A DNA stretch of 33,581 nt from Bacillota bacterium (GTDB lineage: Bacteria; Bacillota; Sulfobacillia; Sulfobacillales; Sulfobacillaceae), in NCBI GenBank assembly GCA_023488565.1, contig JAMDDZ010000086.1:1-33581 (forward strand). The letters run 5' to 3'. This document shows, in pieces, positions 1,587 through 26,772 of the stretch. A model generated the notes under the pieces. The model had not been told where the DNA came from. It saw only the letters and a list, made by a program, of their open reading frames with translations, and did no database searches. Positions within the stretch are counted from its first letter, which is position 1. Each line of letters starts with the position of its first letter. Made by a program: the position numbers and the translations under genes.

Positions 1587-1982
1587 ATAACGCGAAGGGA
1601 GAGGGACAACTTACACCCGTGCCAAGAAATCCGGGGCAAGGCAGAGAGAAAGACGTGCAATGCGTCCGGGGCGTTTGCGCGTGATCAACTCAAGGCGTTT
1701 CATGGACGCCGCATCTATCACACCATCATTTCAACAGAATATCGCTGAGAGAATCCTGCGCTCTGAACACGCGGGATCAATCACAGAATACGGATAGCCA
1801 ATTAAATCATTCATCCTGTAGAGAACCGTTAGGAATTTTATTCATACCAAACGCCGAGAACTCCATAGGATGGGGTATGGGGGTTGATGTGTTTCAACAA
1901 TTTCATGGAACAAGTTACAAACGTTATATATAATTAGTAGTGACATCTATTTTTGTTGGTTCTCATAGGGAGGGGTGTCTTT
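1587..1982. other. Intergenic region before the transporter gene
   Basis: No credible gene is visible. The left half is purine-rich and may be leftover insertion-sequence DNA. A TATAAT box at 1929-1934 lacks a convincing -35 partner. A ribosome site (AGGGAGGGG, about 1966-1974) precedes the ATG at 1983. Confidence 0.5.
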
Positions 1983-4343
1983 ATGCATCCCAAAAAGGAA
2001 CAGTGGGGTTTGTCGGCTTATTGGTTCTCTCTTAACATGGAGGGTGCGGCGCTATTAACTATTTTAATACCTGTAACTTTAGTGCGTTTGTCGAGAGCGG
2101 GACATATTGGAGAACTAGCTCGATTAGCGAGTCTCGCTGCAATTTTAGCCATGCTTGTCCCTCCGATAGCAGGAGCCTATTCTGACCGGCAAAGACGCCG
2201 GGGAAAACCACGAAAGCCCATGTTGTGGTGGGGTACCACAGCCAATGTAGCAGGCCTGATCATTATCCCGTATGCGCGTTCCATAACGACGCTGACGCTG
2301 TTGTTTGTCCTGATGATTGCGGGTCAATCCGGCGCACAAAGTGCCTATCAAGCCATGATGCCTGAGGTGCTCCCGCAAAATCAATGGGGAAAAGCTTCCG
2401 GCTACATGGGTTTGGCAAGCTTGCTCGGTACTGTGGCCGGATTGGGATTTGCCGGATTTAGCGGTACCAATATTAGCTACCGGGCCATCGCGATGGTTTT
2501 GGTGGTTGGTGCTCTTTTCACCACTGCATGGGTGCGCGAGCCCAAAGGGACAGTAACACTCTCTGGCCCGCATGTGATGGTACGCAATCATCGCGATTTT
2601 GTGCGGGTATTTTGGGCGCGGTTTTTAGTGCTGTTGGGTCAGACTTTTTTGATGACGTTTATCTTGTATTTTTTCCGTGACGTGCTGCATGTTTCGTCGC
2701 CGGCGTCTCAAACGGCGTTAGTAGCAGGATTGGCTTTGGTAGGAGCAGCGGTTTCTACCGTGCTTATGGGACGTCTTTCAGACCGCGTCAGTCGTAAATT
2801 TATCGTGTTTTTCGCGGGTCTGCCCATGGCCATTGCCGCGTTGGGATTTGGGTTGGACCCGCGCTTATCATTGGTGGCGTTGTGGGCACTGCTGTATGGG
2901 GTGGGATATGGCGCATTTTTATCTGTAGATTGGGCTCTAGGGTTAGAGTCAATCCCTGATTTAGCTAATGTGGCCCGCGATTTAGGGGTTTGGGGAATTG
3001 CATCAAATTTCCCAGCCGTGATTGCTCCAGCCATGGGGGGTTGGGTATTGTTGCATGCCGCCGATGCGAAAAGTGGCTATCAATTTTTATTTCTATTGGC
3101 TTCTGGCACCTTTTTCTTAGGATCCGTGGCGGTGTTGCTCGTGGGACGCCGTCATACACCCAAAGCATGGTCGCCTATTCTGGCCTGGATTGTATCCGTT
3201 GCGGTCGGCCGTTATGTTAAATTGCGTTACCATGTGGGGGTGTTAGGCAGAATCCCCGCCTATCAAGGGGCTACTTTGGTTGTTGGCAATCACGGTCACG
3301 ATATTGAGGGGATGGCAATTCCCGTATTATTGCTACAATCGCGGCACTTTGGTAGTCGGGTCATCTCAGCTGGATCCCAACGCCTCATGGAACCGGGATT
3401 TCTGCCGACGCGTATGCCGCTGCCATGGGGACGTTGGCTATCGGGCGTTAATTTGGATGGACTGTTATGGACGTTGGGTGTACGCCCGATTGAAAACGAA
3501 CCATTATTTCGACCTATTTGCAGTTGGGGATACACTGTATTTAAAAGTAATGGCAACTTATCGCTGAACGATGTGTTTACCAAAGAGATCATCGAACTGC
3601 TGGCGCAAGAGAAAGAGCCTCCGATGTTTCTGCGAGATCTTTGGTCTCCGCGGTATGTGGCGGCAGCGGTTACGCCTCGGGCAGTAACAATATTGAAGGA
3701 GCCCTACCGCAGTTTTTGCAAAGATGACATTCGGCAGCACGTTCGTCGTCAAATGGATGAAATCCTTGCCTCAGTGCGCCCGGGTGATGTGCTATATTTG
3801 ACTCCTGAAGGCCGCTATACCGAAGACGGGCGTCTGGGTCGCTTTCGTCATTTTTGGTATGAGGCGGTACAGCGCATTCCGAATGTGGTTTTAGCTGCTA
3901 CATCTTACGATTTGTTACGCCCAGGGTCACTGCGCATGTGGGTTCACTTTTTTCCATGGAATCGTCACAATGATGTCTCTTGGGTGTTGTCCTCAGTACG
4001 GCCTATGACAGCAAGTCACTTGGTCGCGCATATTTTAACATGCCATCCGTTAGTGAGTTGGGACCAAGCGTTTGTACTAGCCATCCAATTATGGCAGCAG
4101 GACAAAGATAAGTTTATTTGGGCAAAGGATTTGGAGGAGAATACAGACACAGTTATTAAGCAAGCGTTGACTTTTATACAATCGAGCACTTGGCCAAAAA
4201 CTCAAGACCTGGGTGACCCACGGTTTCCATACGTGGCTAATCTGCTCGCCTATTACGAAAACCAATGGCAAGAAACCGAGATTGCCTGGCGCCGATTAGA
4301 ATTGGCAAGGACGGTGTCCGCAACGCCTGAAGTCGGGATTTGA
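1983..4343 (+). CDS. MFS transporter fused to an acyltransferase-like (PlsC-type) domain
   Basis: The ATG at 1983 is preferred over the upstream TTG at 1953 because AGGGAGGGG lies just before it, giving 786 residues. Residues 1 to about 400 are very hydrophobic with repeated helices and loops such as DRQRRRGKPRKP and GRLSDRVSRK, as in the major facilitator superfamily. The C-terminal half is soluble: VVGNHGHDIEGM resembles acyltransferase motif I, but with H-x4-E instead of H-x4-D, and LTPEGRYTEDGRLGRF resembles the FPEG motif. The order recalls the LplT-Aas fusions that flip and re-acylate lysophospholipids, so a role in membrane lipid handling is an inference. The substrate is not readable. 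The gene converges on ctaG with a 28-base gap. Confidence 0.8.
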   Translation: MHPKKEQWGLSAYWFSLNMEGAALLTILIPVTLVRLSRAGHIGELARLASLAAILAMLVPPIAGAYSDRQRRRGKPRKPMLWWGTTANVAGLIIIPYARSITTLTLLFVLMIAGQSGAQSAYQAMMPEVLPQNQWGKASGYMGLASLLGTVAGLGFAGFSGTNISYRAIAMVLVVGALFTTAWVREPKGTVTLSGPHVMVRNHRDFVRVFWARFLVLLGQTFLMTFILYFFRDVLHVSSPASQTALVAGLALVGAAVSTVLMGRLSDRVSRKFIVFFAGLPMAIAALGFGLDPRLSLVALWALLYGVGYGAFLSVDWALGLESIPDLANVARDLGVWGIASNFPAVIAPAMGGWVLLHAADAKSGYQFLFLLASGTFFLGSVAVLLVGRRHTPKAWSPILAWIVSVAVGRYVKLRYHVGVLGRIPAYQGATLVVGNHGHDIEGMAIPVLLLQSRHFGSRVISAGSQRLMEPGFLPTRMPLPWGRWLSGVNLDGLLWTLGVRPIENEPLFRPICSWGYTVFKSNGNLSLNDVFTKEIIELLAQEKEPPMFLRDLWSPRYVAAAVTPRAVTILKEPYRSFCKDDIRQHVRRQMDEILASVRPGDVLYLTPEGRYTEDGRLGRFRHFWYEAVQRIPNVVLAATSYDLLRPGSLRMWVHFFPWNRHNDVSWVLSSVRPMTASHLVAHILTCHPLVSWDQAFVLAIQLWQQDKDKFIWAKDLEENTDTVIKQALTFIQSSTWPKTQDLGDPRFPYVANLLAYYENQWQETEIAWRRLELARTVSATPEVGI

Positions 4344-4371: not shown

Positions 4372-5199
4372 TTAGGCATACCACGACGACATATCGTAAT
4401 GGGAAAATGCCCTGGCGAAGGCAATGGCGTAAGCGATTGCCATCGACACGCCCATAATTAGGCCGCCCAATTGTTGATCTGCTAAGGAAGAAAGGCCGAA
4501 TAAGTGCGGCATGCTTTGATAGACGGTATAAAAAGGAGAAGACGTGTCGATCACATAAATGGTGGGGGGCATCATTAGATCGAAATTAAGAAACCAATAA
4601 ATCATCTGAGCTTCAGGATTTAAGGGTCCTTCAATAGCTGGAGACAGTAATTGGCGTGCTCCTTGGGACTTTTTCCCCTTCGCTACGGTTAATCGGCCGG
4701 GAGCGTATACGGGCCACCATAGAAAAATAGCAGTAACCATTGCCAACAGTGTGCCAATGGTGTAAGGCACGTTGAACTGCAGCGTCCAATCCAGCAGAGG
4801 AGGGTACTGCCATGCCCACATGACCATGTTGAAAAGTAAGAGGGCTATGAGAGGGTGGCCGGCAATCCGCACAATTCGGCGTAATATGGGTACTGCGTAC
4901 CATGCTTCAAGTAGCCCCTTGGGAAGGCCCCGATAGATCAGCGGAGGCACTACCAGGGTTAGTAGCGCTACTTGGACCATATGAGCTGCGTATAAATCTT
5001 GGGTTGCCCAAATGTTGAGTGGACTACCCACGCAAAGAAAATAGAGGGACAATGCACTAAAGAAAGACATCTGTTGCGAGATCCGCGGTTGTTCCACAGC
5101 AACCGCCCATCGCAAACGAAGAGTCCCTGTCAAGGTGTGGTACAACACACCTAAAATGACGATGAGAACTAATATTGCTGGATTCCAAGACCACGACAT
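4372..5199 (-). CDS. ctaG: Cytochrome c oxidase assembly protein, CtaG family (caa3_CtaG)
   Basis: This 275-residue polytopic membrane protein has the CtaG/DUF1404 pattern: an N-terminal SWNP motif, then SPLNIWATQDLYAAHMVQ, GHPLIALLLFN, WAWQYPP and a C-terminal block with QQLGGLIMGV. The family is needed for assembly of CuA/aa3-type oxidases, probably copper delivery, in Gram-positive bacteria. Its start has an AAGGTGAG ribosome site. It lies on the strand opposite the oxidase operon that begins 2.2 kb to the right. Confidence 0.9.
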   Translation of the reverse strand: MSWSWNPAILVLIVILGVLYHTLTGTLRLRWAVAVEQPRISQQMSFFSALSLYFLCVGSPLNIWATQDLYAAHMVQVALLTLVVPPLIYRGLPKGLLEAWYAVPILRRIVRIAGHPLIALLLFNMVMWAWQYPPLLDWTLQFNVPYTIGTLLAMVTAIFLWWPVYAPGRLTVAKGKKSQGARQLLSPAIEGPLNPEAQMIYWFLNFDLMMPPTIYVIDTSSPFYTVYQSMPHLFGLSSLADQQLGGLIMGVSMAIAYAIAFARAFSHYDMSSWYA

Positions 5200-6000: not shown

Positions 6001-6291
6001 GTGGCCGACTGGATTTATGTGGCATATGTGGCGTATGTAGTAACGTATTTGACTGGGCTTACTTTTTACATTCGGTTTGATGTCCGGCGCCGTCCTTTGC
6101 GGCGAAGATTATTGGGTATCCATCTTCTAATGGCGGTTGTGACCTTTATCTCGTTAACGGCATCTATGGCTTTATATGGATTTCCAGAGCGTGCAGCTGT
6201 GCCTGAAACATCGCATCAGTCGACAATGTGGTACTATGTGCTGCAGCATCGGTCAGAACATTCGAAATCGCAAATTGCAGGACAACCGTAG
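6001..6291 (+). CDS. Small membrane protein (96 aa), paralogue of the preceding gene
   Basis: GTG start at 6001, placed after GGAAAGGAAG. Two hydrophobic segments flank a strongly basic loop (RFDVRRRPLRRR), and a hydrophilic C-terminal tail of about 35 residues follows. It shares the loop-then-H-helix pattern with the 76-residue protein upstream. Only 21 bases separate the two genes, so they are probably co-transcribed. No known family is recognised. Confidence 0.6.
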   Translation: MADWIYVAYVAYVVTYLTGLTFYIRFDVRRRPLRRRLLGIHLLMAVVTFISLTASMALYGFPERAAVPETSHQSTMWYYVLQHRSEHSKSQIAGQP

Positions 6292-6320
6292 TGGGTACCC
6301 ATATCAAAATAGGGAAGAGG

Positions 6321-7091
6321 ATGGTTGTGAGCTCTACGTGGAAGCAGTCATGGGAAATGGCAAGTGAATATTGGCAGTCGAGTTGGAAGATGTGGTGGAG
6401 TTCCTTGGTGTTTGCCGTTATTATATTTGTTCTATGGACAATAGTGAATCCTTCCGTAGTGCCGTTTCTGTTGCTTCGGATTCAGCCATTTAATGATCCG
6501 GTTATCGGAATAACGTTTCATCATAATCTGAGCACGCTGTCAAAATCCCTGGTTCAATTAACAATCAGCAGTTTGGCCGTCGTGGTAATTACCACAACAA
6601 TAACGCGGCGTTGGGTGCCACCGTCGATTGGGTTAGGGTATATTTCCGCGGGACTTCTGGCATTAGTGTCCTTGGCGTTTATGGCTGTTGCTGGTGTTCC
6701 CATCGGACGAGGTAACGGAAATTTTGGGATTACCATGGCAGTGTGCTTAATATCGTTAGTGTTTTTGTTGCCCGTGATATTTTGGTGGTGGCCTTGGCGG
6801 ATGACATTCGCCAAAGCGTCATTTGGCGATTTTGTGAGTTGGCTTATACGCTCGCTATTAGAAAAAGCTCTTATCGCCTTGGCATGGCTTATTGGTTTGG
6901 CGGTGGCAGAAATGCTGGCGGCAGGAGTAGCCTGGGCTACATTTTCCCCGTTGCTTGGTATGGTCACCTTGGCGTTGCTTGCGATCATTGATGGCGCCCT
7001 GACTTGGGGAGCCGCGATTTTTTACGCTCGAAACTTCATTCCTCGGATAAATCCGTCCTCAAAGCCGATATTAACCCCGCCTACTCGGTAG
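6321..7091 (+). CDS. Polytopic membrane protein of unknown function
   Basis: About 255 residues with roughly six hydrophobic helices, for example WWSSLVFAVIIFVLWTIV near the start and MVTLALLAIIDGALTWGA near the end. The site AGGGAAGAGG at 6311-6320 fits initiation at the ATG at 6321 or, with better spacing, the GTG at 6327; an in-frame ATG also lies further upstream at 6228 but has no ribosome site. No motif identifies the function. It follows the two small membrane proteins in the same direction and may belong with them. Confidence 0.65.
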   Translation: MVVSSTWKQSWEMASEYWQSSWKMWWSSLVFAVIIFVLWTIVNPSVVPFLLLRIQPFNDPVIGITFHHNLSTLSKSLVQLTISSLAVVVITTTITRRWVPPSIGLGYISAGLLALVSLAFMAVAGVPIGRGNGNFGITMAVCLISLVFLLPVIFWWWPWRMTFAKASFGDFVSWLIRSLLEKALIALAWLIGLAVAEMLAAGVAWATFSPLLGMVTLALLAIIDGALTWGAAIFYARNFIPRINPSSKPILTPPTR

Positions 7092-7346: not shown

Positions 7347-7455
7347 GATTCGTAAACAATTAAAATTTCTTCAGCAAGTTGAAGGAGTTTAAAACTTCCT
7401 GTCGAATACCAATGTCTGTACCTTGTCCCAATTATGGGAAAGGGAATTTATTACT

Positions 7456-8121
7456 GTGTTGATGAAGGGGGTTAACCCATTGGATGAAGCCCTAGACAAG
7501 ACTCCGGGAGGGCCCGAGGAAGAATTGCCAAATTGGAGCCGCCGACAGTTTTTGCTAGGCACCACTGGACTGGCGGTGGCTGGGGCCGCTGCGCTGTGGA
7601 CACGTACCCCGATTGTCGATGCGGCGCGGGCCATTTTCGGGTCACCAGTTGATACGGGACTGGTTCATGTGTACCAAGAAGATTTTTATTTTGTGCCTAA
7701 TTACATGACGTGGCGCGTAGGGGACAAGATGACCATGCGGTTGCAAAACATGAGCTTGACGCGTTACCACGAAATGCAAATTGGCCGTCACGTGAGTCGT
7801 GAACAGACAATATTTGGCACACTGACCGCTGACGGTTTTACTGAAGATTTTTGGGACGGGGTTCCTGTGACATTCAGCAATCCCTACAAGATGGACAACC
7901 TGGTTTACAGCAAGGCAATCCCCACCTTTATCGGTCCAAAGTCGGATTATTTGATCGAATATGGAGGGGCATTGAGTCCGACCCTGAAACCGGGTGGCCA
8001 TATCGATCTTACCTTTGTGGTACCTGACAAGCCCGGAATTTGGCAATATGGGTGATTTGTTCAATATGCCGCCCATTGGCGGTTTGGGATGCGTGGCGTC
8101 CTAAATGTGATTAAAGCGTAA
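7456..8121 (+). CDS. Tat-exported cupredoxin with an in-frame TGA in place of the copper-ligand cysteine
   Basis: The GTG at 7456 fits an AGGGAA site 9 bases before it; an ATG at 7462 is the alternative. A twin-arginine signal (SRRQFLLG plus a hydrophobic stretch) precedes a cupredoxin-like domain with N-M-S-x4-H, a typical first His ligand. The frame reaches PGIWQYG and then meets TGA at 8053-8055. Reading on gives FVQYAAHWRFGMRGVLNVIKA and TAA at 8119-8121. With Cys at the TGA, the tail has the C-x6-H-x4-M set of type 1 copper ligands. Either the codon is recoded, or this is a single nonsense mutation removing the metal site. The gene heads the oxidase operon, so the protein is probably an electron carrier or oxidase subunit outside the membrane. 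Confidence 0.75.
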
Positions 8122-8187
8122 ACCAGTATAAGGAATTTCAACAGTTCATCGGTAGCGGAAATATTCAGTGGGGAGGGAGTGCCTCCG

Positions 8188-9009
8188 ATGGGAAGCGTGT
8201 TGGTGTTTGGGCTATTATGGGTCGTCATTTCTCTATTAGGGGAATGGGGGGCTACAACCTGGATTAATTCGGCTCCTGATGGCACTGGACCATATTTTGG
8301 GACGGCTTCCAATCTTGGCGTTATTGGAGCCCATGCCTTCGATTTTCTTGTGTGGGTTGCCGTACCCATCTTTGTGTTTGTTGTATTGATGATTATTTTT
8401 GCGATGATTAAATTCCGCGCTAAGCGTGGAGAAAAAGTCATTGACGCTCCGAAACAAACGCGCAACAACAAAGTATTTGTCGGTTCTTGGATATTGATTA
8501 GTATTCTGGTAAATCTGCTTGTATGGCTGCACCCTAACGCAAGTGGGTTAGAGCAAGTATTCGCGGCGCAATTGCCGGCCAACAACCCCAATCCTTTGGT
8601 AGTCGACGTTACAGCACGCCAATGGGAATGGATATTCAGCTATCCACAGTACAACATTACGCAATCGCTAAACGCAAACGGACAGGATACTTTATACCTT
8701 CCGGTTGACCGGCCTGTCAAATTTGTACTACGGTCCTATGACCCATTTCACACCTATGATACTGCAATCGATGTCATTCATGGATTCTGGATTCCGGCAT
8801 TTGGGGTCAAATATGACGTGATTCCCGGCGAGACTCGGGTGATCTATATAACGGCTACCAAATTGATTTCGACTGAACAAAACCCTATGGCCCGGGTGCA
8901 GTGCTCCGAGGTGTGTGGGCCGGGACATCCATATATGGAAGCTAACCTACACGTGGTAACGGGCTTGGCGTTTGCGAAATGGGCCAAGCAACAGGCATCG
9001 AGATCGTAA
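8188..9009 (+). CDS. coxB: Cytochrome c oxidase subunit II (CuA)
   Basis: The ATG at 8188 is chosen because GGGAGGG at 8171-8177 is well spaced for it; the GTG at 8179 would be too close. The product is about 273 residues with two N-terminal membrane helices and a cupredoxin domain outside the membrane. CuA ligands are complete: His198 in VIHGFWIP, then CSEVCGPGHPYM supplying Cys239, Cys243, His247 and Met250. The aromatic QWEWIFSYPQ motif for electron transfer is present. No heme c domain follows, so it is not a caa3-type fusion. It lies between the cupredoxin gene and coxA. Confidence 0.95.
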   Translation: MGSVLVFGLLWVVISLLGEWGATTWINSAPDGTGPYFGTASNLGVIGAHAFDFLVWVAVPIFVFVVLMIIFAMIKFRAKRGEKVIDAPKQTRNNKVFVGSWILISILVNLLVWLHPNASGLEQVFAAQLPANNPNPLVVDVTARQWEWIFSYPQYNITQSLNANGQDTLYLPVDRPVKFVLRSYDPFHTYDTAIDVIHGFWIPAFGVKYDVIPGETRVIYITATKLISTEQNPMARVQCSEVCGPGHPYMEANLHVVTGLAFAKWAKQQASRS

Positions 9010-9066: not shown

Positions 9067-10944
9067 ATGGCACAACCCTTGCCCAAAGGTCAAATGGCGT
9101 CCATGCCAAAACGGATCGCCCCATGGCCTCCGGTATTAAGAGCCTTTCTGTGGGCAGGCATTGGTTTTGTGGTTTTAGCGGCAATCGCCGCCTGGCTTGA
9201 TCCCAGTCCCAATAGTCCTTATTTAACTGCAGTGGGATCCGTCGCTGGGTGGTTTGGGGCTTTGATCGGATGGCTTTTAGGAATTGGGGGCTATGATTAT
9301 ATTGTGCGTCCAATGATGGGGTACCCCACGCCTCGAGTACGAACGTCGGGCTGGCGGAGATATTACGAGTATGCCTTGGATCATAAGGTGATCGGCCTCC
9401 AATACTTAGGGGCTTCCACCGGGACTTTTTTGGTTGCGGGTCTTATCGCGATGGCCATGCGGTTTCAACTGATGAACTATCAGCCAACGTTATTTCATTA
9501 CCCCGAGGATTACCTCAACGCGGTGGGGATTCATGGTACTTTAATGATGTTCACAGTGGCTACCGTTGCCATGGTAGGCGGACTGGGAAACTACTTCGTA
9601 CCGTTGATGATTGGTACCCGCGAAACCATGTTCCCCAAAGCCTCCGGAATTTCTGTATGGCTGGTTCCCATTGGGGTGCTTACGATATCCATGTCGCCGT
9701 TGCTGGGACAGTGGAGCACGGGGTGGCGCGGGTATGAACCCTTGGCGGCCTCGGACGGCAGCGGGTTGCTTTACTACTATCTCGGGGTGTTTGCCCTAAC
9801 CACCTCTTCATTGATTGTAGCCATTAATCTTACCGCAACAATCCTATTTAAACGAACCAAAGGAATGACATGGAATCGGTTGCCCTTGTTCGCTTGGGGC
9901 ATTTTAACCGTGTCCCTTCTCAACATTATCTGGCTGCCAGAAATACAGGCTACGTTCATATTGGGAATGTTGGACAAGGTGATGCCACTAAACTTGTTTA
10001 ACGTGTTTGGGCAACCTCTAGGGTATGAGTACTTGTTCTGGCTATTTGGCCACCCTGAAGTCTACATCGTCGTGATTCCGGCTTTGGCTATTTGGAACGA
10101 GATCCTGCCTGTTATGGGCCGGAAATCCCTATTTGCACGCCCCATTGCGGTGCTGGGGCTAGTGTTCGTTATGCTATTGTCAGGGATGGTTTGGGCGCAT
10201 CACATGTTCACAATGATGCGTTTTAGCGAGATGCTGCCATTCTCGTTTTTTACCGAGATGATTTCAATTCCGACGGGATTTGCTTACTTGGCTGCCATCG
10301 GAACACTATGGAATTCCCGGTTGCGGATCACAACACCAACCCTCTTAGTATTGATGAGCATGTTTAATTTCCTGATTGGTGGCCTTACCGGCTTATTTCT
10401 TGCGGACGTTCCGGCTAACCTGCAACTCCACAATACATTTTTTGTGGTGGGCCACTTTCACTACACCATTATAGGCGGTATGGTGTTTAGCTGGATGGCG
10501 GCTATGTATTACTGGTTGCCCAAATTCTCCGGGCGCACTTACAGTGAGTTTTGGGGCAAATTGGGCGCAATTTGGGTATTCATTGCTTTTAACGCTACGT
10601 TTCTTAACTTTTTCATTCTGGGATTGCACGGCATGAACCGATGGGTTAGTGCCTATCCCAAATATCTGCAACCGGAGAACTTTTGGACGTCAATTGCGGC
10701 ATTCTTTTTGGGTGCAGGTTTTGGGATTAACATCATTCACATCGTGTGGGCATGGATCAAAGGTCCAAAAGTTAAAGAAAATCCTTGGGATGCCAAGACC
10801 TTGGAGTGGCAGACGAGTTCTCCGCCCCCTGCCAAGAATTTCGATGTATTGCCTGAAGTGGTGGGGAGTTTCTACACCTATGGTGATAATGTTCCCGATC
10901 CGGTAGTTATTCCCTCGGTGCAGGAACAAACGCCAGGACTGTGA
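9067..10944 (+). CDS. coxA: Heme-copper oxidase subunit I
   Basis: This 625-residue subunit I catalyses oxygen reduction at the heme-CuB centre. A ribosome site AAGGGAGG lies 8 bases before the ATG. There are about 70 extra N-terminal residues with two added hydrophobic segments. Ligands seen: His156 (GIHGT), CuB His329 with Tyr333 (HPEVY), His378-His379 (AHHM), and His463/His465 (VGHFHY). The conserved glutamate in HPEVY is present, as in A-type oxidases. Oddly, the K-channel lysine of the usual IPTGVKVF motif is missing (IPTGFAYL), and the D-channel aspartate position reads Glu (GTRETMFP). The operon is cupredoxin-coxB-coxA-subunit III-small protein-ctaB. Confidence 0.96.
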   Translation: MAQPLPKGQMASMPKRIAPWPPVLRAFLWAGIGFVVLAAIAAWLDPSPNSPYLTAVGSVAGWFGALIGWLLGIGGYDYIVRPMMGYPTPRVRTSGWRRYYEYALDHKVIGLQYLGASTGTFLVAGLIAMAMRFQLMNYQPTLFHYPEDYLNAVGIHGTLMMFTVATVAMVGGLGNYFVPLMIGTRETMFPKASGISVWLVPIGVLTISMSPLLGQWSTGWRGYEPLAASDGSGLLYYYLGVFALTTSSLIVAINLTATILFKRTKGMTWNRLPLFAWGILTVSLLNIIWLPEIQATFILGMLDKVMPLNLFNVFGQPLGYEYLFWLFGHPEVYIVVIPALAIWNEILPVMGRKSLFARPIAVLGLVFVMLLSGMVWAHHMFTMMRFSEMLPFSFFTEMISIPTGFAYLAAIGTLWNSRLRITTPTLLVLMSMFNFLIGGLTGLFLADVPANLQLHNTFFVVGHFHYTIIGGMVFSWMAAMYYWLPKFSGRTYSEFWGKLGAIWVFIAFNATFLNFFILGLHGMNRWVSAYPKYLQPENFWTSIAAFFLGAGFGINIIHIVWAWIKGPKVKENPWDAKTLEWQTSSPPPAKNFDVLPEVVGSFYTYGDNVPDPVVIPSVQEQTPGL

Positions 10945-10982: not shown

Positions 10983-11552
10983 GTGGTGTCGGTAAAGGGC
11001 GGTTCGGTGAACGGAGAGAACGGAGTTGGCGTTAAGCATTACCGCGCCGGATTCAGTCTATTTTTGATTAGTCAAGCTGTAGTGTTCATGGTGTTGATAG
11101 CTGTGCGCTATTTGATCGCCGGGAGTAAAGTGGGACCTTACAGCCAATCTTTGGGTGTAGTCATCACTGTGGTGATGCTCATTAGTGCCTGGTTAGCCTA
11201 CAGCGCTCGAAAAGCTGCAGAACACAACAATGGACAAGCCATACAAACCCGATTGACGGGTGCATTCTGGCTAGGGGTATTGGCGTTTGCGCTGGTGCTC
11301 ATCATGTGGACCGTAGTTAAAAACGCAGGATATAGCGTGACGATGCCCTCTCTTGAAGTGTTTTGGGTTGGAACCGGATTTTGGTTAGTCTATGTGCTCT
11401 TAGGTTTGTTCCTCCTATTTGCGGCTCGTTCGCGGGGACGCCTAGTGGGATACACGCCAAACCAACACTGGGATCTGGAAGCCAGCTCCCACTTCTGGAA
11501 TTTGGTAACGGTCGGATGGATTGCTCTGTGGATCGTGTTCTTTATACTTTGA
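10983..11552 (+). CDS. coxC: Cytochrome c oxidase subunit III-like protein
   Basis: The GTG at 10983 sits 6 bases after AAAGGAG. It encodes 189 residues with five hydrophobic helices. The C-terminal SSHFWNLVTVGWIALWIVFF corresponds to the conserved WHFVDxVWIxLF ending of subunit III. The order after coxA supports the call. Sequence similarity elsewhere is low, as is common for short Gram-positive subunit III proteins. Confidence 0.8.
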   Translation: MVSVKGGSVNGENGVGVKHYRAGFSLFLISQAVVFMVLIAVRYLIAGSKVGPYSQSLGVVITVVMLISAWLAYSARKAAEHNNGQAIQTRLTGAFWLGVLAFALVLIMWTVVKNAGYSVTMPSLEVFWVGTGFWLVYVLLGLFLLFAARSRGRLVGYTPNQHWDLEASSHFWNLVTVGWIALWIVFFIL

Positions 11553-11824: not shown

Positions 11825-12745
11825 ATGCAAAGTGCCCATGTCGTTCGAACCAAGGATGTGAATATCGACCCCAGACATACTCAATCGACGTGGAGCGATA
11901 TTTTGCGGGCTTATTTGGCTTTGACCAAACCAGGCATTGTCCTTTGGCTCATGATTACGGCATTGTGTGCGATGACGGTGGCTGCCCACGGAGTGCCCCC
12001 GCTGATTACATCGGGAGCCACTTTGCTGGGATTGGCCTTTTCGGCCGGTGGAGCGCATGCCGTTAACATGTGGTATGACCGGGATATTGATCAGGTAATG
12101 GAACGGACCAAACATCGCCCGGTGGCTGTGGGGCGTATACCACCGGTGAACGCCTTGGTTTTTGGAGTGGCAGCCGGCGTATTCTCGTTTTTTTGGTTAT
12201 TCTCTATGGTAAATCTGTTGACGGCATTGACCTGTTTATCAGGATATCTATTCTATGTTTTTGTTTACACCATCTGGCTCAAGAGGCGGTCGCCCCAAAA
12301 CATTGTGATAGGGGGTGCTGCCGGCGCGGTACCGCCGTTGGTGGGGTGGACAGCGATAACAGAACATTTGGGAGTTACAGCATGGCTTATGTTCCTGATT
12401 GTCTTTCTATGGACGCCGCCTCATTTTTGGACACTGGCGTTGTACAAACAGGACGATTATCGGCGGGCCAAAATCCCGATGATGCCTATAGTACGGGGTT
12501 CGCGGGCTACGACTGTGCAGACAATGGTTTATACCGTTTTAGTGATCATAACCTCTGTGGCATTGTATCGAGTGGGACACCTTAACTGGGGATATTTGCT
12601 TGTGGCGATTATCGCAGGGACGGTATTTTTAGGTTATCAAGTGCAGTTGTTTCGAAATCAAAATGCTGATAACCGCTCGGCAAAAAGAGCGTTTGAGTTC
12701 TCCTTGATTTATATTGCCCTCTTGTTTGCGGCCATGACGCTGTAA
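11825..12745 (+). CDS. ctaB: Protoheme IX farnesyltransferase (heme O synthase)
   Basis: This 306-residue UbiA-family membrane enzyme transfers a farnesyl group from farnesyl diphosphate to heme b, the first step to heme O and heme A of the oxidase. The substrate motif NMWYDRDIDQVMERTKHRP (first Asp-rich motif) is present at about residues 80-98, and a later WTPPHFWTLALY block with DDYRRAKIPMMP is characteristic of CyoE/CtaB. The start is 11 bases after the small gene, with AGGGGAGG as site. It is last in the operon, before a strong terminator. Confidence 0.95.
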   Translation: MQSAHVVRTKDVNIDPRHTQSTWSDILRAYLALTKPGIVLWLMITALCAMTVAAHGVPPLITSGATLLGLAFSAGGAHAVNMWYDRDIDQVMERTKHRPVAVGRIPPVNALVFGVAAGVFSFFWLFSMVNLLTALTCLSGYLFYVFVYTIWLKRRSPQNIVIGGAAGAVPPLVGWTAITEHLGVTAWLMFLIVFLWTPPHFWTLALYKQDDYRRAKIPMMPIVRGSRATTVQTMVYTVLVIITSVALYRVGHLNWGYLLVAIIAGTVFLGYQVQLFRNQNADNRSAKRAFEFSLIYIALLFAAMTL

Positions 12746-25044: not shown

Positions 25045-25836
25045 GTGTCGGCAGAGACTACATCAATTTTATTGGAGCACGAAGGTGCAGTGGCAAAATT
25101 TATCCTCAATCGTCCACCGGCTAATGCATTGGATGTGTCGACGAGCAGACTTTTGTGGGAACTAATGGAAAAGGTTGCCCAAGATCGGAGCGTGAAGGTT
25201 GTCGTTATCGAAAGCGCTGCTGAGAAGATCTTTTGTGCAGGCGCGGACGTATCCACCGTTGATGCTCATGACGTGCCACTAATGGATAATTTAGGGAAAA
25301 CATTAAAGGACACATTTCTCTTGATGCGGTCTATGCCGCAAATAGTAATCGCAGCGGTCAACGGCCATTGTTTGGGCGGCGGCTTGGAACTGGCTCTTGC
25401 TGCCGACTTTCGTATAGCTAAAGATGGGCCGTCAAAATGGGGCCTCCCAGAGATCAATTTAGGACTGTTTCCGGGTGGGGGAGCGGTTGCGATGATGAGT
25501 CGGTTGGTTGGTTCACAAAGAGCCTTTCGTCTGGCGCTGTTAGGTCAGAGCATCTCAGTGCAACAGGCTTTCTCATGGGGATTAGTGGATGAATTAGTTG
25601 AAGCTGAGAAATTTTCCGAGAGCGTCGACACAATGGCCAAGCAAATTGTTCAAGCGCCATTTGAGGCCGTCACAGATTTGAAGCAAGCAGTGTGGCGAGG
25701 AATAGAAATGCCGCTTTCAGCGGCCTTTGACTTTGAACGAGTGATGCATCGCGACCTGGTTCTAACCTCGGATTGCTACGAAGGTGTGAAAGCCTTTAAA
25801 GAACGGCGAGTTCCCGAGTTTGGAAAGGAAGGATAA
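25045..25836 (+). CDS. Enoyl-CoA hydratase/isomerase family protein
   Basis: The GTG at 25045 is chosen from the GGGGAGAG site 7 bases upstream; the ATG at 25027 has no site. The 263-residue crotonase has NRPPANALD, the oxyanion loop FCAGADV, NGHCLGGGLELALA and WGLPEINLGLFPGGG. Both catalytic glutamate positions are therefore kept. It would hydrate, isomerise or open a CoA-bound ring product. The specific step cannot be told from sequence, as PaaF, PaaG and ring-opening hydratases share this fold. Confidence 0.9.
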   Translation: MSAETTSILLEHEGAVAKFILNRPPANALDVSTSRLLWELMEKVAQDRSVKVVVIESAAEKIFCAGADVSTVDAHDVPLMDNLGKTLKDTFLLMRSMPQIVIAAVNGHCLGGGLELALAADFRIAKDGPSKWGLPEINLGLFPGGGAVAMMSRLVGSQRAFRLALLGQSISVQQAFSWGLVDELVEAEKFSESVDTMAKQIVQAPFEAVTDLKQAVWRGIEMPLSAAFDFERVMHRDLVLTSDCYEGVKAFKERRVPEFGKEG

Positions 25837-25840
25837 CGCG

Positions 25841-26708
25841 ATGAAAGTCGCCGTGTTTAACGACTCGCGTATCGGTGTTGTTCAAAACGATAAGATCATT
25901 GATGTGACAGATACCTGTCCTTACTACGCGTCTACTTGGCCGCCGACCTTTATGTTGTCGTTTATCGAGCACTTTGACACACTGCGCCCGCAAATCGAGG
26001 AGTTAGTGGAGGAGCAAGCTGTCACCGTCCCCCTCAATCAAGCTATACTTCATCCTCCCATTCCCATTCCCACGAAGATCTTGGCGGCACCCGTCAATTA
26101 TCGCTTGCATCAAGAGGAGATGACGGTGAAGGGTGCGGTGTATGAGGGTATGGCGCTGCACACCATTGAGCAATATGGAGTTTTTTTAAAACCGCCTTCT
26201 TCGTTGATTGGGTCAGGGGGAAGGGTGGAACTTCCCTTCCCAGACCGAAGGACAGATCATGAAGGAGAAGTGGGGGTTGTAATTGGGAAAAAGGACGTAA
26301 TATCCCGCGAGACAAGGCTAAGGATTATATCTTTGGCTACACCGGCGTGATGGACATCACAGTTCGCGGTTACGAAGACCGCACTTACCGGAAGGGATTT
26401 GACTCCGTGTGGTAACCAAAGATGAGCTGGTGTGTGAAGAGGATATTTCTTTCGAACTAACGGTCGATGGGATCACTCGGCAAAAATCCACTACCCGCCA
26501 ATTGATTTTTGATATACCTCGCCTAATTGAATTAGCGTCCTTTCAAATGACTCTCTACCCGGGAGACATCATCTCCACTGGCACTCCAGATGGCATGGGT
26601 CCTATCGTCCCGGGAAATGTGGTTAGCCTCACCGTAGAAGGGATTGGTACGTTAAGTGTGACAGTGGCCCATGCTCATCCGGGGACACGACGGGGACTGG
26701 GGAACTAA
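25841..26708 (+). pseudogene. Fumarylacetoacetate hydrolase family gene with two frameshifts
   Basis: The ATG at 25841 has AAGGAAGG as site. The frame runs through ILAAPVNYRLHQEEM and a HEGEVGVVIGKK block, both typical of FAH proteins. Near 26313 it slips. The correct continuation (KDYIFGYTGVMDITVRGYED) is one frame away and hits a stop at about 26413. A third piece in another frame begins VVTKDEL and ends with PGDIISTGTPDGMGP. The usual TPLGPW-like link is also missing near 26405. FAH-family hydrolases include fumarylpyruvate hydrolase of the gentisate route. As it stands the product would be truncated at residue 169. Confidence 0.85.
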
Positions 26709-26772
26709 GATCCCATATTTGGATATAAAAAAGGGAAACAAAGCCAGAAGGTAAAGAAAGGGATGAAAAGTT

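Follow-up and report, generated by a model that had tools for sequence, protein, structure and literature searches.

A predicted selenocysteine copper ligand in an AcoP-type cupredoxin encoded with the cytochrome oxidase genes of Sulfobacillaceae

The 33,581 nt stretch of Sulfobacillaceae DNA analysed here, referred to as the window, contains an in-frame TGA (8053-8055) at the position of the copper-ligand Cys (residue 211) of an AcoP-type cupredoxin. The locus raises the question of whether this TGA ends the protein or is decoded and, if it is decoded, by which amino acid. The frame 7423-8055 is open until the TGA, with the residues PGIWQYG just before it, and runs on past the TGA as FVQYAAHWRFGMRGVLNVIKA for 21 codons to a TAA at 8119-8121. 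This is as had been set out in the preliminary description of this DNA, which also held that a Cys at the TGA, together with an earlier His, would complete a C-x6-H-x4-M copper set; this too is borne out, by C211, H218, M223, and H116. The gene and the residues concerned are:

7423..8121, + strand: gene of the acoP-type cupredoxin, with the TGA read through; 232 codons counted from the first possible TTG (AcoP homology, fold match)
7534..7566, + strand: twin-arginine signal motif WSRRQFLLGTT (from the sequence; WSR invariant and RQ nearly invariant in the alignment)
7768..7770, + strand: H116, first His copper ligand, in RYHEMQIGR (aligns with AcoP H85 by phmmer; invariant in the 16-sequence alignment)
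8074..8076, + strand: H218, second His copper ligand (alignment of 16 homologues)
8089..8091, + strand: M223, axial Met copper ligand (alignment of 16 homologues)

The true start of acoP is uncertain, the in-frame candidates being TTG 7423, ATG 7462, and TTG 7480. When the TGA is read as Cys, all four ligands are invariant across the 16 aligned homologues. Stopping at the UGA would cost the copper site its Cys, His, and Met together.

The closest solved relative of the product is AcoP of Acidithiobacillus ferrooxidans (PDB 7z3b, E=1.6e-19, matching in two stretches), the copper ligands of which are H85 and C159-x6-H166-x4-M171 (PMC4059628). The green copper site of AcoP has a high potential, and the protein is copurified with cytochrome c oxidase (PMC5982212); Sulfobacillus homologues of it have already been mentioned (PMC4059628). 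An AlphaFold2 model based on 16 own and related sequences has a mean pLDDT of 67.4, with a confident beta core that scores higher than this mean. The top Foldseek matches of the model are all AcoP structures (7z3b, 7z3f, and 7z3i; E=1.7e-10, TM (target) 0.79). A protein query against plasmid sequences found no match. The earlier designation of a Tat-exported cupredoxin can thus be made more specific, the cupredoxin being of the cytochrome-oxidase-partner AcoP type, presumably with a green copper site; for the export signal, the Pfam TAT_signal model gives only a weak match that is under its cut-off (E=0.049), the WSRRQFL motif being nevertheless conserved in the family. The A. ferrooxidans protein and the window protein are alike in their cupredoxin fold, in the His plus C-x6-H-x4-M spacing, in a cytochrome oxidase gene neighbourhood, and in belonging to acidophile respiration. 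They differ in that A. ferrooxidans AcoP has an N-terminal transmembrane anchor, whereas the window protein has a Tat-type signal, and in that the former has Cys where the Sulfobacillaceae gene has UGA.

The genes around acoP include those of a haem-copper oxidase:

4372..5199, - strand: ctaG-like oxidase assembly factor (PF09678, E=6.4e-30)
6228..7091, + strand: gene 5' of acoP for a conserved membrane protein (no match in Pfam)
8179..9009, + strand: coxB, cytochrome oxidase subunit II, with its CuA motif CSEVCGPGHPYM intact (PF00116, E=4.3e-12)
9067..10944, + strand: coxA, haem-copper oxidase subunit I, with TGA as its stop (PF00115, E=7.5e-109)
10983..11552, + strand: coxC, subunit III, with TGA as its stop (PF00510, E=7.3e-7)
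11825..12745, + strand: ctaB-like haem O synthase, UbiA family (PF01040, E=2.4e-68)

The acoP gene is directly upstream of coxB, coxA, and coxC, and this oxidase operon is seen in three genera. The gene order of the window recurs in Sulfobacillus harzensis (L139) and in the metagenome assembly G005 (L136), in both of which a protein similar to the product of 6228..7091 is encoded before acoP. Homology, fold, ligand spacing, and clustering with cox genes all place the product among the AcoP-type proteins, the Cys position itself being a UGA. A global reassignment of TGA in this genome is ruled out, as coxA, coxC, and the gene at 1953-4343 all terminate in TGA.

An alignment of homologues at the TGA, which the preliminary description had proposed, was conducted. 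Within the 151 relatives searched, the Cys codon is TGA in five copies, those of the window's genome (G000), G005, G017, G024, and G028, which span three genus groups of the Sulfobacillaceae. G028 corresponds to S. harzensis DSM 109850, an isolate with an assembly coverage tag of 110.99. G005, G017, and G024 were assembled from metagenomes; the genome of the window is incomplete (71.5%) and fragmented. Across 84,980 species genomes, 76 loci were identified, four of them with TGA, those of G005, G017, G024, and G028; the remaining motif-bearing loci have TGC or TGT, except for one distant TCC, and at one locus the motif was not found. No further TGA copy is present among the 51 acoP copies from a profile search of 154 genomes of the class. 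The same codon is thus TGA in four further genomes, TGC or TGT in about 70 other AcoP genes, and TAA or TAG in no acoP copy found. This is beyond chance, and the TGA at 8053-8055 is biology rather than error. It is typical of selenoproteins that near orthologues exchange Cys and Sec and have no other stop codon at the site (PMC12013277, PMC9312934), and here the in-frame UGA aligns with the Cys of the homologues.

Close orthologues with TGC or TGT are found in G004, G006, G008, G015, and G026. In a maximum likelihood tree from which the Cys/TGA codon was left out, the five TGA and five Cys copies are mixed in one clade (support 100/98), within which at least two switches between TGA and Cys are forced, and every TGA/Cys difference is confined to this subclade. 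The Sulfobacillus genomes G020, G025, G029, and G031 have 4 to 5 acoP paralogues each, all with Cys, and switching to Sec is limited to the acoP clade that is linked to this cox operon. Additional TGA triplets noted with paralogues in G024 (C18) and G027 (C94) were rejected, being upstream of the gene; in these paralogues TGT is the Cys codon and no stop interrupts the profile match.

The sequence beyond the TGA has been conserved as protein. The tails of the window's gene and that of G005 differ by 2 nonsynonymous and 8 synonymous codon changes, where about 126:40 would be expected in the absence of constraint (binomial P=3e-4). Between the window's gene and that of G028 there are 3 nonsynonymous and 6 synonymous differences (P=0.008); the G005 and G028 pair, with 3 of each, is not significant alone (P=0.16). 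This purifying selection on the codons 3' of the UGA, as is expected for a bacterial selenoprotein, indicates that they are translated.

The family has the means to decode UGA as selenocysteine. In the 34 family genomes, matches above cut-off were identified for SelB in 30, SelA in 29, and SelD in 30, with one TGA inside each of these SelD. A tRNA-Sec match above the Rfam cut-off is present in 24 of the 34, and in 22 of these ARAGORN calls the best match tRNA-SeC(UCA). SelB and SelD are found in all five TGA genomes, four of which (G005, G017, G024, and G028) also have SelA and a tRNA-Sec(UCA) of at least 70 bits, completing the SelA/SelB/SelD/tRNA-Sec(UCA) set. Of seven genomes tested, six (G004, G005, G017, G024, G026, and G028) have Fdh-alpha with one TGA. 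The search for selA, selB, selC, and selD that had been suggested earlier is therefore positive for all four in the family and for two in the window's own genome: selB (G000:C85:16604-18478, with the SelB winged-helix domains present) and selD with its TGA (G000:C29:10210-11145). Neither selA nor selC (tRNA-Sec) was found in this 71.5%-complete genome, where the tRNA-Sec matches were rejected as tRNA-Ser and others. Its congener G004 has SelA and tRNA-Sec. In G026, two strong tRNA-Sec-like matches are seen (L061 and C12:20786-20877, at 73.8 and 72.2 bits). L061 reads as a tRNA-SeC(UCA), with a sequence quite unlike the family type, and the G026 assembly has 6% contamination.

It has to be considered whether the UGA might be read as Cys by an opal tRNA-Cys of the selC* class, in which some tRNAs carry UCA as the anticodon; the product would then be an ordinary Cys cupredoxin. 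The family does have long-arm tRNA-Cys of the selC* type, and opal representatives have been described elsewhere (PMC7609411). However, all those found among the tRNA-Sec-like genes searched have a GCA anticodon or are a damaged copy (L222), and the recovered UCA tRNAs are all tRNA-Sec. With SelA, SelB, SelD, and true Sec genes at hand as well, decoding by tRNA-Cys is very unlikely. The long-arm, tRNA-Sec-like tRNA-Cys(GCA) genes occur in many family genomes (L080, L082, L101-L107, L109, L110, L222) and fall within the selC* class described by Mukai 2017 (PMC7609411); in the one from G028 (L222), the anticodon loop is shortened.

As a general phenomenon, UGA can be read through by near-cognate tRNAs. 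Programmed or leaky readthrough at this site, inserting Trp or another near-cognate residue, would yield a copper-free or altered protein, possibly a regulator. Yet the homologues have Cys rather than Trp at the position, the other three ligands are kept, coxA and coxC end normally at a UGA, and the Sec machinery is available, so that this explanation is very unlikely. The least probable reading is that the TGA is a true stop in a truncated or decaying gene, or a sequencing or binning error; the incomplete, fragmented assembly and another gene with frame changes (about 26320-26400) would allow for it, but the same TGA is present in four other assemblies, one of them from an isolate sequenced at high coverage, none of the copies has a broken upstream frame, purifying selection acts on the tail, and other stop types are absent from the site. 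The suggestions of a sequence error and of a recent mutation or pseudogene are rejected on these grounds. Selenocysteine, listed first in the preliminary description, is supported by the shared TGA, the Cys relatives, the selection on the tail, and the Sec genes of the family; the pattern that would have counted against it, of absent Sec genes and a decaying gene beside Cys-bearing strains, is not what is seen, as the family has Sec genes and the tail is conserved.

Sec insertion by SelB would call for a SECIS element, and two hairpins are found 3' of the UGA:

8066..8083, + strand: hairpin 1 (GCC...GGC), nt 14-30 after the UGA, partly or largely dictated by the amino-acid sequence
8083..8105, + strand: hairpin 2, candidate SECIS, in five of five TGA genes

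Hairpin 1 was rejected as the SECIS, being mostly forced by Ala...Trp-Arg and having a loop that does not show the GG/GU pattern. If formed, it would shorten the effective distance between the UGA and hairpin 2. The core of hairpin 2 (8086-8102, nt 34-50) has the form GGGAUGC-GUG-GC[A/G]UCCU, which in the window gene is GGGAUGC-GUG-GCGUCCU; the GUG loop (8093-8095) is 37 nt past the UGA. In all five TGA genes it formally agrees with the bSECIS model (GUG loop, at least 7 bp, 37 nt, MFE -8.7 to -11.5), for which 37 nt is the outer spacing limit (PMC13188914). For SelD and Fdh, these genomes mostly have SECIS loops of GGA type and GGUCU, spaced at 17-19 nt. Hairpin 2 with at least 7 contiguous pairs is found in only 2 of the 20 Cys copies examined, those of the near relatives G026 and G004. 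Synonymous resampling of hairpin 2, using one gene per genus, gave P=0.003, 0.085, and 0.086 (combined 0.0015). Comparison of the TGA genes identified no compensatory base-pair changes in the hairpin, which should therefore be seen as a good SECIS candidate and not as proof. Both hairpins are kept in the TGT acoP of G026 (C45, L016), which fits a recent change from Sec to Cys, or a codon that is not plain Cys.

The acoP gene very probably encodes a Tat-exported AcoP in which the UGA is decoded as Sec, copper is bound by His116, Sec211, His218, and Met223, and the protein is an electron partner of the oxidase. SelB bound to hairpin 2, a putative SECIS inside the coding sequence, would bring Sec-tRNA-Sec to the UGA at 8053-8055. 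The precursor would then fold and be exported by Tat, with one copper held by the four ligands, and the mature protein would pass electrons to, or tune, the haem-copper oxidase encoded downstream. Here Sec insertion at this UGA and the exact SECIS are predicted from sequence, the Cu-Se bond would follow from homology, and the role as an electron carrier is presumed. It is likely, more broadly, that there is a natural copper electron-transfer protein with Sec-ligated copper (His, Sec, His, Met) in extreme-acidophile respiration, and that it has been evolutionarily interchangeable with the Cys form. It may be speculated that selenium is of benefit through the potential, acid stability, or softness toward Cu(I).

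Sec is a metal ligand in FdhA and [NiFeSe] hydrogenase. These families and SelD resemble the acoP case in having an in-frame UGA, Sec/Cys exchange, and SelB-dependent machinery. An engineered Sec112 azurin has reportedly been made by semisynthesis, with Cys changed to Sec at the type 1 copper ligand; this is the same substitution, but man-made, and the acoP gene would be its natural counterpart. Copper-handling Fe-S and efflux proteins are among the known prokaryotic selenoproteins (PMC13188914), and the prokaryotic selenoproteome reviews searched (2022, 2026) and the deep-Sep paper contain none of cupredoxin, azurin, or plastocyanin type (PMC13188914, PMC12013277, PMC9312934). A search of open-licence full texts, which could miss a subscription paper, found nothing relevant on a natural selenocysteine cupredoxin, azurin, AcoP, or blue copper protein. 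The gene is predicted to encode the first natural copper electron carrier with a selenium-held copper.

If this is true, the selenoprotein family would be new, as would the metal-selenium site in biology, the Cu-Se bond in a type 1-like site having so far, in the literature found, been addressed only in the engineered azurin. It would add a respiratory, exported metalloprotein to the selenoproteome. The exchange would have occurred more than once within a single subfamily. The organisms are culturable acidophiles, and Cys orthologues and paralogues are available as controls, so that the influence of selenium on the potential, the reorganisation energy, and the tolerance of acid and oxidants of a copper electron-transfer site becomes directly testable. 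Standard annotation would end such a protein early, at the UGA.

Elsewhere in the window, a fumarylacetoacetate-hydrolase-like gene (25820-26770, + strand) has frame changes near 26320 and 26400, which may be assembly indels or mark a pseudogene.
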